Assembly (NCBI GenBank): GCA_015272165.1
Contig: JACYMF010000105.1
Coordinates: forward strand, 1-64,000
Length of the DNA: 64,000 nt
Reading direction: 5' to 3'
Origin: Cyanobacterium sp. T60_A2020_053
GTDB lineage: Bacteria > Cyanobacteriota > Cyanobacteriia > Cyanobacteriales > Cyanobacteriaceae
In this document: positions 940 through 53,223 of the stretch, in pieces
How the letters are laid out: each line of letters opens with the position of its first letter
Position numbering within the stretch: the first letter of the stretch is position 1
The notes under the pieces: generated by a model
What the model saw: the letters and a program-made list of their open reading frames with translations, nothing else
What the model was told of the DNA's origin: nothing
Database searches by the model: none
Program-made: the position numbers and the translations under genes

Positions 940-1010
940 GAATTATTGCTAACAACTAACGTAATCTTAGCTTAATTGGGTTGCTAGTGTCAGAACCTGT
1001 TTGAGGAGAG

Positions 1011-1356
1011 ATTTACTAAATCTTAGATTTTCTATATAAACGGATATAAAATGACATAAAAGGACAAATAAATAAAAAGTTTGTGAAAGTATTCGATTTC
1101 GGTTTCAGAAAAGTAATATTTGATGTACGATAAAGGGAGATTTTGGTTGCCCCTTTTGGGGAAGTACCTTACAAAAATAGGATAGTAATACTATTAACGC
1201 TTCCGTGGGTGAAGCAGTCTGTTAAATCAGATAACATAAGTGTCTTAAAAATATTTTTTAAGGCTTTGAGGGATACCTCCTTTTGAGTATTTTACTCAAA
1301 TGCTATTGCAGTTTATTACGGTATATGCCGTTTTATTCTGCATAAACGTATCAGAA
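1011..1356. repeat. 346-bp identical direct repeat, copy 1 (possible structured RNA or mobile element)
   Basis: This stretch matches 48699-49044 with no difference or gap that I can find by eye. It has no substantial open frame but many potential hairpins in a row: CCCC-TTTT-GGGG near 1150-1162, CTTAAAAA/TTTTTAAG near 1243-1262, GAGG-GATA-CCTC near 1268-1279, TTTGAGTA/TACTCAAA near 1283-1300, and GCAG/CTGC enclosing ACGG/CCGT near 1308-1341. Such a run suggests a noncoding RNA or a folded mobile element. It is in the same orientation as copy 2, and both copies have a minus-strand gene start on their left. No duplication is obvious around this copy. Confidence 0.85.
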
Positions 1357-19925: not shown

Positions 19926-20111
19926 TATAATTTGGCTAGTTTTTCAAGATAAAATTTATGAAATACTGAGCTTTCATAATCTTATTTTAACTTGAAATGG
20001 CTAGTTATTAATGGGCAATGGATAAATGGATAATTGATAATTGACAATGAAAAACTATTAATTATCTTCCTTTCTCCCTCTGCTTCCCCTTCTCCCTTTC
20101 CACTATAAGAG

Positions 20112-20326
20112 CAGGGTGTTTTCAAAGTCAGGATCAAAATTGATTTGTTTTTGACAAGAAGACAATATAAGGATGATCCCCCCCAACCCCCCTTAAAAAG
20201 GGGGGAGATTCAGGGAGACAGGAGGATTTTTTACTATTAATTGATTTATTAGTAGTTAAAAACCTCTGAATTTCAGATTATTGGCTAGTTTGAGAAACTA
20301 ACATTTTTGAGAATGAAAACGCCCTG
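20112..20326. mobile_element. Family A miniature transposon, copy 1 (215 bp)
   Basis: The terminal inverted repeats are CAGGGTGTTTTCA on the left and the reverse complement of CAGGGCGTTTTCA on the right. A perfect 9-bp target duplication CTATAAGAG flanks it (20103-20111 and 20327-20335). It encodes no transposase and holds a CCCCCC/GGGGGG hairpin. It differs from the copy at 52786-53000 by only two bases. CAGGG ends with 8-10-bp duplications are reminiscent of the ISAs1 family, which is inference. It inserted at the stop codon of the permease gene, and the duplication preserved the TAG. Confidence 0.92.
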
Positions 20327-21154
20327 CTATAAGAGGTCAAGAAAAGCGCCCTTCACCCGATGAAAGAAAAACCAACCAAGAGCAAGAATGATTAAGCCAC
20401 TAGATAAACTCCAGAGATAATAATTAAGAGGAGGGGCGCTGTTTTGTAAACTAATCAAACGAAAACTCTCAATAATCGGCACAAGGGGATTAAACTTCAA
20501 AAAAGGTTGTATCCTTTCGGGTACAATGTCGACAGGATAAAAAACAGGGCTAGTAATCCACACCACAAAAGTAGCAATTTCATAGAAATAACCTAAATCA
20601 CGGAAGAAAACATACAAAGCCGACATTAACAAACCGATGCCTGTACAGACTAGAACAAGACAGAAAAAAGGAAAAAATAACAAAAAAACAGAGAAAAAAT
20701 TATCACTATTAATTAAAGTGACTATAATCAATAGGGGTAAAGAACCCACCACAAATTGAAAAATATTAACCCCAATCATAGCCAAAGGAAAAACCGCCGG
20801 GGGCAGATAAACCTTATTTAGTAAATCTCCATTACCCACAATGCTACCAAGGGCTTGGGTTGTAGAACTATTAAAAAAATTGGTCACCAATAAACCAGTG
20901 AAGGCCGCTAACATATAATTTAGAATAGAATCATTATAATAAGAAGCAAAAGCAGCCCCAAAAATAGCCGTGTATAAAGCCGTCATAGTAAGAGGATTTA
21001 AGAGTGACCAATAAACTCCTAAAAATGAACCACGATAACGGGTGTGGAGATTTTGGGGAATCAAGACCAAAAGTAATTCCCTATAACGGCGAAAACTTGT
21101 GGAAGAAAGGATTTTTAAGCATGATTGCTTAGATTTTCTCAAAGCGACACTCAT
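20327..21154 (-). CDS. ABC-2 type permease for polysaccharide / polyol phosphate export
   Basis: The 275-residue permease has six predicted membrane segments and the ABC-2 features RYRGSFLGVYWSLLNPLTMTALYTAIF (about residues 39-65) and VVWITSPVFYPVDIVPERIQPFL (about 197-219), typical of Wzm/TagG-type exporters. It would export O-antigen or teichoic-acid-like glycans with a Wzt-type ATPase, but that ATPase gene is not adjacent. The TAG stop lies inside the 9-bp target duplication of a miniature transposon, so the coding sequence escaped damage. Confidence 0.85.
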   Translation of the reverse strand: MSVALRKSKQSCLKILSSTSFRRYRELLLVLIPQNLHTRYRGSFLGVYWSLLNPLTMTALYTAIFGAAFASYYNDSILNYMLAAFTGLLVTNFFNSSTTQALGSIVGNGDLLNKVYLPPAVFPLAMIGVNIFQFVVGSLPLLIIVTLINSDNFFSVFLLFFPFFCLVLVCTGIGLLMSALYVFFRDLGYFYEIATFVVWITSPVFYPVDIVPERIQPFLKFNPLVPIIESFRLISLQNSAPPLNYYLWSLSSGLIILALGWFFFHRVKGAFLDLL

Positions 21155-25433: not shown

Positions 25434-25603
25434 ATATCCCTGATCTGTCACTTTCCGATCAAGTTGCTTTAATAGATATAGTTTCAGCCATTTTTAAATT
25501 CTGATAATTGTTATTAGTTAAAAACTTCTGAAGTAGTTTAGTGATCAAGGTCTTGTAATTTCAGAATGGCAAATGTTTTCGGGTAGTGACAAAAGAGGGA
25601 TAT
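25434..25603. mobile_element. Miniature element with ATATCCCT ends (170 bp)
   Basis: The left end ATATCCCTGATCTGTCACT and the inverted right end ATATCCCTCTTTTGTCACT match at most positions over about 24 bp and enclose an AT-rich core without a frame. It is directly joined to a second element at 25601-25703 in the nrtA upstream region. Confidence 0.7.
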
Positions 25604-34099: not shown

Positions 34100-34254
34100 A
34101 AATTTTTTATATACCAATTTTCCTTGTTTTATTCTGGTTTTAATATATCAAGAAAAGTCAGGAACTTGGTTAAGTATAGATTAAGAAAACTTAGTAATTG
34201 ATAAAAGGGCAAAGGGCAAAGTTTTTTAAAGGGCAAAGGAAATTAATAATTAAT

Positions 34255-34514
34255 TAGGATTTGCTGAATAAATCAAAAACCTTGTCAAATAAAGGTTTAA
34301 AGTCTATTTTACATAACAAAAAGTGTCATAAATTGACTTTTTTCTCTAAAAATACTGTATTTTTTCATCCCCATCAAGAATTATTGATACAAGTGAGCAA
34401 TTTATGAAAAATAACTATTTGGCTTAACTCTTTAATTGATAAGCATTTCACCTGAAACCTGACACCCGACACCTGACACCTCCCCTCACTAAAATACTTT
34501 TTCAGCACCCCCTA
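34255..34514. mobile_element. Family C miniature element, full length (260 bp)
   Basis: The ends TAGGATTTGCTGAATAAATC and, inverted, TAGGGGGTGCTGAAAAAG enclose a core shared with 48004-48262, 50088-50348 and 11291-11454, including degenerate CCTGACA heptamers near the right end. TAATTA flanks both sides, suggesting a 6-bp target duplication. No frame is present. Confidence 0.88.
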
Positions 34515-34522
34515 ATTATTTG

Positions 34523-47909: not shown

Positions 47910-48003
47910 TAAGGGCAGGTTTCAGGTTGCAGGTTGCAGGTTTCAGGTGTAATTTTCAGACGATGATATAATTCGAGCAAAAAGTTGAACCGACGAAATG
48001 AAT

Positions 48004-48262
48004 TAGGGGTTGCTGAAAAAGTATTTTGGTGAGGGGAGGTATCAGGCTTCAGGTGTCAGGTTTCAGGTAGAATGCTGATAAATTAAAGACTTTAGCCAAA
48101 TAGTTACTTTTTATAAATTGCTCATTTGTATCAATTATTTTTGATTCGGATGGAAAAAATAGAGTATTTTTAGAGAAAAAAGTCAATTTATGACACTTTT
48201 TTTTATGTGTAATAGACTTTAAACCTTTATTTGACAAGGGTTTTGATTTATTCAGCAGACCC
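48004..48262 (-). mobile_element. Family C miniature element, full length, inverted (about 260 bp)
   Basis: The left end TAGGGGTTGCTGAAAAAG and the inverted right end GGGTCTGCTGAATAAATC enclose the same core as 34255-34514 in reverse order, including CCTGAAA-type heptamers. GAATTA borders both sides (47999 region and 48263-48268), a probable 6-bp duplication. Confidence 0.85.
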
Positions 48263-48333
48263 GAATTAAGATATATTTTTTGTCAATTCTTTCACCTAAT
48301 ACCTAACACCTGATACCTGACACCTTTACAGCA

Positions 48334-48396: not shown

Positions 48397-48567
48397 TTAC
48401 ATTAAACCTAACCAAGAAAGTAATCCTTGTCCGGTAGTATATTCAATGGCGAGAGTGATGATAAAGCCCATCATTGCGGCTCTACCGTTTAATTTTTCGG
48501 AATAAAGGTTAAAACCAAATTTAGGGTCTTCCATATTGGGGGTTGTGGTCGGTTTGTTATTTGCCAT
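48397..48567 (-). CDS. High-light-inducible protein / one-helix chlorophyll-binding protein
   Basis: This 56-residue gene is easily missed because of its size. The product starts MANNKPTTTPNMEDPKFGFN, and the helix NLYSEKLNGRAAMMGFIITL carries the ExxNGRxAMxGF chlorophyll-binding motif of Hli/ELIP proteins. It would sit in the thylakoid membrane, bind chlorophyll and carotenoid and protect photosystem assembly intermediates. An AAAGGA site precedes the ATG, and a strong terminator follows. The second copy of the 346-bp repeat lies 131 bp upstream in divergent position. Confidence 0.92.
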   Translation of the reverse strand: MANNKPTTTPNMEDPKFGFNLYSEKLNGRAAMMGFIITLAIEYTTGQGLLSWLGLM

Positions 48568-48698
48568 GATTTTTTCCTTTTGTGGTTATTTATTGCTAAA
48601 ACTCTTTGTTAAGTTTCATTAATATGATAACATTTCATTGCGTAAAATTTTGTTATGAAATAAGGTTTTTTGAAAAACGGTGATATGGTGAAAGAGAT

Positions 48699-49044
48699 AT
48701 TTACTAAATCTTAGATTTTCTATATAAACGGATATAAAATGACATAAAAGGACAAATAAATAAAAAGTTTGTGAAAGTATTCGATTTCGGTTTCAGAAAA
48801 GTAATATTTGATGTACGATAAAGGGAGATTTTGGTTGCCCCTTTTGGGGAAGTACCTTACAAAAATAGGATAGTAATACTATTAACGCTTCCGTGGGTGA
48901 AGCAGTCTGTTAAATCAGATAACATAAGTGTCTTAAAAATATTTTTTAAGGCTTTGAGGGATACCTCCTTTTGAGTATTTTACTCAAATGCTATTGCAGT
49001 TTATTACGGTATATGCCGTTTTATTCTGCATAAACGTATCAGAA
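48699..49044. repeat. 346-bp identical direct repeat, copy 2
   Basis: This copy is the same as 1011-1356. The 9-bp GAGATATTT occurs at 48694-48702 and again at 49045-49053, so this copy looks like an insertion with a target duplication, the unit then being 48703-49044. The termini do not form an obvious inverted repeat. It ends 29 bp before the LmeA/pentapeptide gene and may supply that gene's promoter or leader. Confidence 0.85.
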
Positions 49045-49073: not shown

Positions 49074-50090
49074 ATGTTAGACTGCCCTTTATTAAAGTTA
49101 GAAAATCACTGCCCTGAGTGTGTATCGATGGATTTAAAGATGATTCCTCTCGACAGTCAGCAGTTTGAATTACGTCTTAATGTTAGTTTGGCACAACCTG
49201 AGATAAGTATTCTAACGGGGAAGATGCGCTTGGGGTTACGGGCGCTGACATTGGGATTAGATTTGCAGGATGTGAGTTTGGTGGCGGTTAAAGATTTGGA
49301 TTCATCTTTCATCAAAAGGGTTAATAATCCTTTATCTCGTTTGCCTCATTGGGAAATTCGTCATTTACCTAACCAAAAGTTTTTACAGGATGATTTAACT
49401 GATGTTGCTTTGGGGGTGGTGAAGATAACTAATGCAGAAGATTTTCGTCTTGGAGTAACATTGACTTGTAAACCAGCGCACGTCTATCTGAGCGATATTG
49501 AGGGGTTATGGCGTCACGATATTACCCCGAATAAACATGGCATTTTAGAAAGAAAGTTGGCTAAGTTTATCTATCAAACGAGGTTAAATCCTTTTGTTAG
49601 TGAGGTAATTTTTGCTACTACTGACAGGGAAGTTAATCATAATTCTGATACTTTAACCAGCGCCCTCCACCAAAATTTAAAAGATACTTTACAGTTAATT
49701 TATCAAGCTAATCAAGATAATTTTGTCGAGTTGGCAAATATTGCGGAGTTGAATTTGTTAACGGATTTTGCCGGTGCTGATTTGACGGGCGCTAATTTGA
49801 GTGGGCTAAAGCTAAGTAGTGCTAATTTAAAGTATGCTAATTTGAGAGGCGCTGATTTGACCGATACTGATTTGAGTGAGGCTAATTTGAGTTATTCTCG
49901 TCTCAATGGCGCTGATTTGACGGGCGCTTATCTGGAAGGGGCAAATCTTCGTTACTGTAATTTGCAATCGGCTAGTTTGGCTTTGGCTAATGTGATGGGC
50001 GCTGACCTTAGTTATGCTAATCTCATTAATACTAATTTGACTAACACCAGTCTCTCTCAAGCTACGGTGGAGGGCGCTGTTTTTAATTAG
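49074..50090 (+). CDS. LmeA family (DUF2993) protein with C-terminal pentapeptide repeats
   Basis: The N-terminal part (about residues 1-225) resembles the DUF2993/LmeA phospholipid-binding domain, with KMRLGLRALTLGLDLQDVSLV and TPNKHGILERKLAKFIYQTRLNPF. The C-terminal part (about 230-338) is made of about 20 pentapeptide repeats of the A(D/N)LxG type, such as ADLTGANLSGLKLSSANL, which fold as a right-handed beta-helix. Many repeats are encoded by the iterated GGCGCT motif. The TAG stop is formed at the junction with a family C element; before the insertion the frame would have run on into TATCCG, so the C-terminus was probably altered. Confidence 0.82.
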   Translation: MLDCPLLKLENHCPECVSMDLKMIPLDSQQFELRLNVSLAQPEISILTGKMRLGLRALTLGLDLQDVSLVAVKDLDSSFIKRVNNPLSRLPHWEIRHLPNQKFLQDDLTDVALGVVKITNAEDFRLGVTLTCKPAHVYLSDIEGLWRHDITPNKHGILERKLAKFIYQTRLNPFVSEVIFATTDREVNHNSDTLTSALHQNLKDTLQLIYQANQDNFVELANIAELNLLTDFAGADLTGANLSGLKLSSANLKYANLRGADLTDTDLSEANLSYSRLNGADLTGAYLEGANLRYCNLQSASLALANVMGADLSYANLINTNLTNTSLSQATVEGAVFN

Positions 50091-50348
50091 GTGTTGCTGA
50101 ATAAATCAAAAATCTTGTCAAATAAACATTTTTAGCATCATAAAAACCCAAAAAAGTGCCAAAAATAGGGGTTTTTAAGAGAAAATACTGTATTTTCTGG
50201 TCACTAATCGACAATTTTTAATAAAAGCTCAAAATTTATCACAGTATTCAGTTATGCTAAAGTCTTTAATTTATCAGCATTCTACCTGAAACCTGACACC
50301 TGAAGCCTGATACCTCCCCTCACCAAAATACTTTTTCAGCAAACCCTA
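50088..50348 (+). mobile_element. Family C miniature element, full length (about 260 bp)
   Basis: The ends GGTGTTGCTGAATAAATC and, inverted, GGGTTTGCTGAAAAAG are flanked by TAATTA at 50084-50089 and 50347-50352, a 6-bp target duplication. The core has CCTGACA-type heptamers near the right end. The junction TA-G forms the stop of the upstream gene. Confidence 0.88.
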
Positions 50349-50495
50349 ATTATCCGAACTTTATATTACTTTTGACTCTGCTTCCCCTTCTAAAATTGAT
50401 ATGTTTGATTCGACTTGGAAAATCCTCTGCAATTGAAGTGGTTAATAAATGTTAGATTATTGATCAATTTGACTGTTGTCCATTTAAAGAGGTTC

Positions 50496-52735: not shown

Positions 52736-53223
52736 AAATTCCCCTTTGAAGCCGAAGCATATTTAGATCATGCCATCTTAGGAAGCAGGGGATTTTCAAA
52801 GTCAGGATCAAAATTGATTTGTTTTTGACAAGAAGACAATATAAGGATGATCCCCCCCAACCCCCCTTAAAAAGGGGGGAGATTCAGGGAGACAGGAGGA
52901 TTTTTTACTATTAATTGATTTATTAGTAGTTAAAAACCTCTGAATTTCAGATTATTGGCTAGTTTGAGAAACTAACATTTTTGAGAATGAAAACGCCCTG
53001 CTTAGGAAGCAGACTCAAAGAATGTAGTCAAATTTTATTAGACATTGAAGAAACATCCGCAGACAGTATCTTTGGTTTTCCTGACAATAAAAAACTACAG
53101 TCATCTATGACTCTTTTTAACCTTATTTCTGACTCGTCTCCTGTTTTTGAGGAGGTTTTGGCTAAGTTTTTTGATGGTCAACAAGACAATAAAACCTTAG
53201 AATTATTGGATTTCTTCTATTAG
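52736..53223 (+). pseudogene. DUF1810 family gene, truncated and split by a miniature transposon
   Basis: The reading frame before 52786 gives PFEAEAYLDHAILGS, and after the element (from 53002) it resumes LGSRLKECSQILLDIEETSA, IFGFPDNKKLQSSMTLF and VLAKFFDGQQDNKTLELLDFFY. Together these match the C-terminal two thirds of DUF1810 proteins. Family A element 52786-53000 splits the frame with a 9-bp duplication CTTAGGAAG. The N-terminal third is not visible upstream, where low-complexity repeats lie, so the gene is doubly broken. An apparent frame from 52981 reads through the element end and is not a real start. Confidence 0.88.
52786..53000. mobile_element. Family A miniature transposon, copy 2 (215 bp)
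   Basis: The ends are CAGGGGATTTTCA and, inverted, CAGGGCGTTTTCA. The perfect 9-bp duplication CTTAGGAAG lies at 52777-52785 and 53001-53009. The sequence differs from copy 1 (20112-20326) at two bases near the left end, so both moved recently. No transposase is encoded. Confidence 0.94.

Follow-up and report, generated by a model that had tools for sequence, protein, structure and literature searches.

Introduction

Members of the IS607 transposon family carry a serine-recombinase TnpA together with TnpB, and the guide RNAs of TnpB (reRNAs) are usually pictured as being made in cis from tnpB-bearing elements. For IscB, trans-acting omega-RNAs that stand alone exist. IS607 recombines at a matching dinucleotide, and the reRNA of the IS607 TnpB of ISXfa1 depends on a pseudoknot in which an apical loop takes part (PMC10711439). 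In the IS607-family element IS1535, TnpA coats the left end, where four phased 9-bp motifs are found at ~20-60 bp (PMC6188088), and TnpBs of the pro-Fanzor clade are marked by IDPG as their RuvC-I signature (PMC10711439). RAGATH-18 RNAs adjoin TnpB in 64% of cases (PMC11061315), and some of them therefore stand apart from it.

Here, we describe a 344-bp unit from Cyanobacterium sp. T60_A2020_053, studied in a window of 64,000 nt (contig JACYMF010000105.1, positions 1 to 64,000 of the forward strand), the components of which, namely IS607, reRNA and MITEs, are already known. With the IS607 elements of the cyanobacterium Paraprochloron terpiosi (L035 and L036 on G029:C1) it shares a left end of GAG and ..GACTAAAT, a right end of ..GCATAAATGTATCAG, insertion at GAG and the hairpins S0-S3, but it has neither tnpA nor tnpB and measures 344 bp as opposed to ~1.76 kb. 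Like the ISXfa1 reRNA (PMC10711439), it features right-end stem-loops, an apical-loop pseudoknot (a candidate in the unit) and a fixed flanking dinucleotide, and the TAM is of the G-dinucleotide type in both, being GGG in ISXfa1 and presumably GAG here. The ISXfa1 RNA, however, is encoded with tnpB, whereas the putative RNA of the unit lies in a tnpB-less element, some relatives of which are equipped with a promoter and differ in their 5′ domain. The related cyanobacterial TnpB shares the DPG RuvC-I motif, as judged from sequence, with pro-Fanzor TnpBs and Fanzor2, although the unit itself encodes no protein. RAGATH-18 reRNAs (PMC11061315) are likewise noncoding RNAs tied to IS607 TnpB, yet the RAGATH-18 covariance model of Rfam has no match in the unit or its relatives. 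Finally, palindrome-associated elements (PATEs) and MITEs resemble the unit as non-autonomous elements with transposon ends, and IscB omega-RNAs as stand-alone guide RNAs, but PATEs and IscB omega-RNAs concern IS200/IS605 Y1 systems, whereas the unit belongs to IS607. Our literature search, the coverage of which left most subscription papers and preprints outside, found no description of tnpB-less IS607 elements with an independent reRNA.

Results

A 344-bp unit dispersed at GAG sites

A preliminary description of the window had reported that the segments 1011-1356 and 48699-49044 are fully identical, and indeed there are 0 differences in 346 bp, while the flanks outside diverge. Alignment of 20 full-length copies nevertheless sets the mobile unit proper at 344 bp (1011-1354 and 48699-49042), because the bases 3′ of TATCAG vary in other copies, so that the two right flanks share the trailing AA of the 346-bp interval by coincidence. 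The two copies and the features of their ends are as follows.

1008..1010, + strand: GAG target and presumed TAM at the left junction; GAG is found in 21 of 22 copies, and the same GAG occurs at the left ends of the Paraprochloron IS607 elements bearing tnpA and tnpB
1011..1354, + strand: copy 1 of the non-autonomous IS607-family element, ATTTACTAAATC...CATAAACGTATCAG, with boundaries taken from 20 full-length copies with differing flanks
1011..1026, + strand: left end ATTTACTAAATCTTAG, homologous to the IS607 left end TTTGACTAAATATCAG
1035..1064, + strand: three direct motifs TATAAACGGA / TATAAAATGA / CATAAAAGGA in 10-bp phase, presumed TnpA binding sites
1353-1354, + strand: AG, the presumed recombination dinucleotide of the GAG target, recurring here where the element ends
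48699..49042, + strand: copy 2, identical to copy 1 but separated from its GAG by two added bases, AT, at 48697-48698
48956..49042, + strand: right end of copy 2 (S1-S2-S3-terminus)

When the genome (118 contigs, 3.36 Mb) was searched for the unit, 22 matches were obtained, 20 of them full length at 97-100% identity. Sixteen of the full-length copies are 99-100% identical and four are 97% identical, the remaining two matches being a truncated copy and a 54-bp piece at a contig edge. The four 97% copies have a 10-bp deletion in common, which removes the same stretch, corresponding to one unit of the phased repeat. With 22 matches, most of which differ by 0-2 substitutions and have unrelated flanks, the unit is multicopy and has moved recently. 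A search for further copies had been suggested in the preliminary description, and such copies extend beyond this genome, as an 86% identical one occurs in Geminocystis sp. GBBB08.

Every copy begins with ATTTACTAAATCTTAG, and the full-length copies finish with the same right terminus (...TATCAG), after which the next base differs between copies in the genome alignment. At the left junction, GAG directly precedes the element in 20 of the 22 copies, GAG with an inserted AT does so in one (copy 2 of the window), and CAG in one. Except for copy 2, where AT follows GAG, all copies have (G)AG at the left and AG at the right end, and this repetition of AG alone fits the expectation for IS607 dinucleotide recombination. 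The unit has no terminal inverted repeats, and no target duplication beyond AG was seen among the genome copies; for both reasons, a MITE of the terminal-inverted-repeat type was discarded. A 9-bp repeat, AAGAGATAT, around copy 2 was also considered as a target-site duplication and rejected, as it is absent from the other copies and is accounted for by the AT insertion and the purine-rich flank.

An empty site could be reconstructed for one copy (L016), which is inserted in a dispersed repeat that the window contains as well: once ATTTAC...ATCAG is taken out, its flanks align ungapped across the junction to the repeat at 25437 of the window, which makes the comparison a paralogous one. Orthologous sites within the same genus were uninformative, as the neighbours are not syntenic there. 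A dispersed repeat family of ~270 bp, with members 76-89% identical, occupies 34250-34521, 47996-48269 and 50083-50351 of the window, and its relatives provided the empty-site comparison of L016.

IS607-type ends

In Paraprochloron terpiosi LD05 (G029), the genome of which is complete, there are two ~1.76-kb IS607 copies, the left end of which, GAG followed by TTTGACTAAATATCAG (GAG followed by TTTGACTAAAT), matches the left end of the unit, just as their right end, ...TTTGAGGGATACCTCC...GCTATTG...GCATAAATGTATCAG, matches its right end. Both code for a serine recombinase. One of these copies itself hits NCBIfam transpos_IS607 (NF033518) with an E-value of 6.2e-57, a close homologue of the Paraprochloron TnpA hits the same model with 1.6e-56, and the copies code for TnpB as well (guided_TnpB, 1.3e-45). 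The membership of the unit in the IS607 family, as a non-autonomous element, is solid. Two observations concern these relatives themselves. In the cyanobacterial IS607 elements L035, L054 and L056, the reading frame of tnpB continues without a stop upstream across tnpA, which lies in another frame, giving a long overlapping frame (541-568 aa), while near the Paraprochloron terpiosi IS607 copy L036 two group II intron domain matches are found on opposite strands (376-453 and 786-863).

The direct motifs near the left end of the unit start at 25, 35 and 45 and span 25-54 bp from the terminus, and it is from this stretch that exactly 10 bp are missing in the four deleted copies. Such helically phased left motifs have the arrangement seen in IS607-family TnpA binding and are presumed to be TnpA sites. 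A further motif, CCGTTTTAT (1328-1336), lies at the right end, inverted relative to those at the left end.

In the right ~100-110 nt of the unit we recognise the homologue of the tnpB 3′ end and right end of cyanobacterial IS607 elements, and a vestige of the TnpB C-terminus, KALRDTSF, is still readable inside the unit. The related cyanobacterial TnpB carries the RuvC-I motif IDPG, and among solved proteins the one that it matches best in sequence is the TnpB-like L79 (9b0l, E 1.3e-22), which suggests that the TnpB of these elements is of the pro-Fanzor type, or Fanzor2-like.

Compensatory changes in the right-end hairpins

The preliminary description had further claimed that the unit lacks a long frame, carries hairpins in series and matches no known RNA class, all of which we can confirm. 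The longest frame seen is a 47-aa ORF at 48831-48974, the fold is stable both as RNA (z -2.5) and as single-stranded DNA (z -4.05), and Rfam gave no credible match even at E<5, with chance matches only for the unit at permissive E and nothing relevant in its relatives. The features of the putative RNA in copy 1 are listed below.

1104..1131, + strand: weak sigma-70-like promoter candidate TTCAGA-16-TACGAT; related mini-elements have TTGACA-18-TATAAT at the corresponding position
1139..1241, + strand: 5′ domain of the putative RNA, of the type found in this genome and Geminocystis
1242..1264, + strand: hairpin S0, with compensatory changes; its position relative to S1 is that of a hairpin in the tnpB codons for ~GALGILLKAL
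1268..1279, + strand: hairpin S1, GAGG-GATA-CCTC, with compensatory GAGG/CCUC, GUCG/CGAC and GCGG/CCGC
1282..1300, + strand: hairpin S2, TTTGAGTA/TACTCAAA, with compensatory changes in 7 of 8 pairs in 16 sequences
1308..1341, + strand: hairpin S3, which contains CCGTTTTAT
1341..1354, + strand: right terminus CATAAACGTATCAG, near-invariant among relatives; the next genomic base would begin the guide
1349-1352, + strand: TATC, candidate pseudoknot with the GATA loop of S1; strands invariant

Covariation in S1, S2 and the pseudoknot was assessed in an alignment of 16 right ends, taken from elements with tnpB and from elements without it. Of the cells of these pairings, 95.8% hold standard pairs; both sides are changed in 45 cells as compared to 13.7 in shuffles (0 of 500 shuffles reach 45), and the signal collapses when partners are shifted by 1-3 columns. 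The GATA loop and the terminal TATC are complementary in 16/16 rows, but both strands are invariant and, because they never vary, the pseudoknot gains no covariation support; the data are only consistent with pairing between the S1 loop and the 3′ end. Directly upstream of S1, S0 derives from tnpB codons in the coding elements and has a very different sequence in several mini-elements, at equal spacing; one Paraprochloron mini-element is without S0. With arms read from predicted folds, S0 arms pair at 98% within a mini-element versus 66% when swapped between mini-elements, the corresponding values for S2 being 100% and 55%. In line with these observations, we infer that the right ~110 nt constitute a TnpB guide-RNA (reRNA) scaffold of four hairpins plus a candidate pseudoknot.

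Upstream of the scaffold, a generic promoter scan of the window placed the promoter candidate of the unit not above chance. As the identity between the 5′ domain of the unit and those of other mini-elements falls within the shuffled range, homology is not detectable there and is not claimed. At the other end, S3 followed by TTTTATT is terminator-like and could halt transcription ahead of the guide.

Distribution and partner proteins

A covariance model of the right end found matches in 72 of the 293 genomes of the order, many of which are tnpB 3′ ends. Elements without tnpB were found in the Cyanobacterium genome itself, Geminocystis sp. GBBB08, Prochloron didemni, Paraprochloron terpiosi, G038, Microcoleus and genus g57, and the same hairpins and candidate pseudoknot recur in tnpB-bearing elements and mini-elements of about seven cyanobacterial lineages. 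No copies of the unit were found in four genomes of the same genus, none in plasmids, and none, by exact pattern, in viral contigs.

The right ends of the mini-elements from this genome, Geminocystis, G038 and Paraprochloron are 76-83% alike, whereas the resident tnpB-derived ends (this genome, G038 and Paraprochloron) are only 63-69% like the mini-element of the same genome, which suggests long persistence of the mini-elements rather than repeated fresh deletion. In Prochloron, the right end of the mini-element is 95% identical to the resident tnpB element and its 5′ domain is 69-77% identical to other mini-elements, suggesting modular exchange. The mini-elements of Prochloron and Paraprochloron carry a perfect TTGACA-N18-TATAAT just 5′ of the conserved 5′ domain, and those of Microcoleus and g57 a perfect TATAAT; those with a perfect sigma-70 promoter look like stand-alone guide-RNA genes within mini-transposons.

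IS607 TnpA was found above the curated cut-off in 11/11 other genomes, which had been picked for right-end matches and include carriers of mini-elements. The assembly of the Cyanobacterium genome itself contains no intact TnpA or TnpB of the lineage, and tnpA survives there only as a ~48-aa relic at C65. The TnpA that spread the copies is thus lost or unassembled, and since the assembly consists of 118 contigs, an intact copy may be missing from it. A Y1 transposase was rejected as a partner, with two weak matches only, in ORFs without sign of linkage to the element. Three tnpB fragments in this genome (L041, L042 and the truncated L043) represent a second small element of 296 bp (1498-1793 in both L041 and L042), made up of tnpB C-terminal codons and the right end; its copies are identical and their flanks differ. 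Its left boundary is a cryptic AAGAG followed by ATTTAAACAAG inside tnpB, which suggests a one-step route by which a mini-element consisting of guide RNA plus right end could originate.

Discussion

Sequence comparison shows that the unit has ends of the IS607 type, that it inserts at (R)GAG with no longer duplication, that ~22 copies are nearly identical, and that its right half, a homologue of the tnpB 3′ end, retains the four hairpins and the candidate pseudoknot although tnpB is gone. We propose that this IS607 mini-transposon has probably been moved by TnpA in trans, with a right half that serves as a stand-alone reRNA usable by TnpB. The perfect identity of the two window copies, ascribed in the preliminary description to recent duplication, gene conversion or RNA constraint, reflects the recent transposition of a multicopy element. 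RNA-level constraint does exist, given the compensatory changes across genera in the right-half hairpins, but it does not act on two particular loci, and gene conversion is not the cause. A gene conversion between the two loci, or an assembly duplication, would readily explain perfect identity, yet the flanks differ, 20 full-length copies are spread over many contigs and an 86% identical copy resides in another genus, leaving such an origin with practically no likelihood. The same description had held that a known insertion sequence end would overturn it. This is partly the case, as the ends are of the IS607 type and the RNA-like half is the reRNA-region right end of IS607 tnpB elements.

It had also pointed out, correctly, that both copies lie upstream of divergent minus-strand genes (an acyltransferase-like ORF at 115-939 and a 56-aa Hli-like ORF at 48397-48567), which, together with the stable fold, could be taken to indicate a host regulatory RNA or cis-element, such as an attenuator, riboswitch or sRNA, kept at two loci. 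However, since GAG sites in otherwise unrelated sequence are where the family inserts, we regard this placement as a coincidence without evident meaning, and with 22 copies in unrelated surroundings, none in four genomes of the same genus, transposon boundaries with a target site, and no Rfam match, a regulatory role for the host is highly improbable. Hardly more plausible is a PATE of the IS200/IS605 type, moved as a single strand by a Y1 transposase: subterminal hairpins at both ends, the absence of terminal inverted repeats and a site-specific left flank would suit it, but the related coding elements have the IS607 serine-recombinase TnpA rather than Y1, phased TnpA motifs are present, and the two weak Y1 matches in the genome show no sign of linkage to the element.

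The chief rival is a passive MITE, in other words an internal-deletion derivative of IS607 moved by TnpA, in which the right hairpins are leftovers of the tnpB 3′ end and of the DNA end and no RNA is made or used. IS607-type ends with TnpA motifs would be enough for movement, the promoter of the unit is weak, and the second family of this genome (296 bp) resembles a one-step derivative with a cryptic left end inside tnpB. Against this, the TnpA footprint at the right end of the IS607-family element IS1535 is ~28 bp (PMC6188088), whereas the distance of S0 and S2 from the right terminus, ~55-110 bp, puts them outside such a footprint, and they keep their pairing with differing sequences in tnpB-less mini-elements. 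Moreover, some mini-elements have a perfect promoter just 5′ of a conserved 5′ RNA domain, and the right ends of mini-elements from four genera resemble one another more than they resemble the resident tnpB ends in three genomes. While mobility history, IS607 ends, target and scaffold conservation are demonstrated by sequence comparison on either account, we consider purely passive hairpins unlikely, albeit far less so than the other alternatives.

According to the proposed explanation, IS607 TnpA acting in trans would have excised the unit and inserted it as a circle, with crossover at the AG dinucleotides. The right half would be transcribed as a stand-alone reRNA (omega-RNA), with the genomic sequence just 3′ of TATCAG as the guide, so that each copy would carry a different one. 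Loaded with this RNA, a resident pro-Fanzor-type TnpB would cleave sister chromosomes at empty sites flanked by GAG, and the ensuing repair would restore the copy. The mini-element would in this way parasitise TnpA for its movement and TnpB for its retention, although in this genome the TnpB-dependent retention may be extinct, since the assembly is without intact TnpA or TnpB of the lineage.

Tentatively, this can be carried further, to a reading that we deem possible without calling it probable. Persistent tnpB-less IS607 mini-elements of cyanobacteria would be stand-alone guide-RNA genes with their own promoter, their own 5′ domain and a pro-Fanzor-matched scaffold, the insertions of which supply different trans-acting guides that recruit a protective TnpB, and in this genome ~22 guides would form a dispersed array that spreads itself. 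If true, protein-free mini-elements with an RNA-selected scaffold would mean that parasites of the transposon can make use of its TnpB in trans. Such use is a proposed step on the path from a selfish nuclease to guide-RNA genes that stand separate, as they do in CRISPR-Cas12, and the lineage concerned is the bacterial one nearest to the eukaryotic Fanzors. As scaffolds, the mini-elements would be both natural and compact, some of them having a perfect promoter, and they identify an unannotated repeat family of cyanobacterial genomes.

The window contains one further repeat, separate from the unit. It is 219 bp long (20110-20328 and 52784-53002), occurs ~40 times at full length and ~100% identity across the genome, and looks like a typical MITE: its termini are inverted repeats (GCAGGGTGTTTTCA/TGAAAACGCCCTGC), and TATAAGA and TTAGGAA appear to be target duplications of 7 bp.
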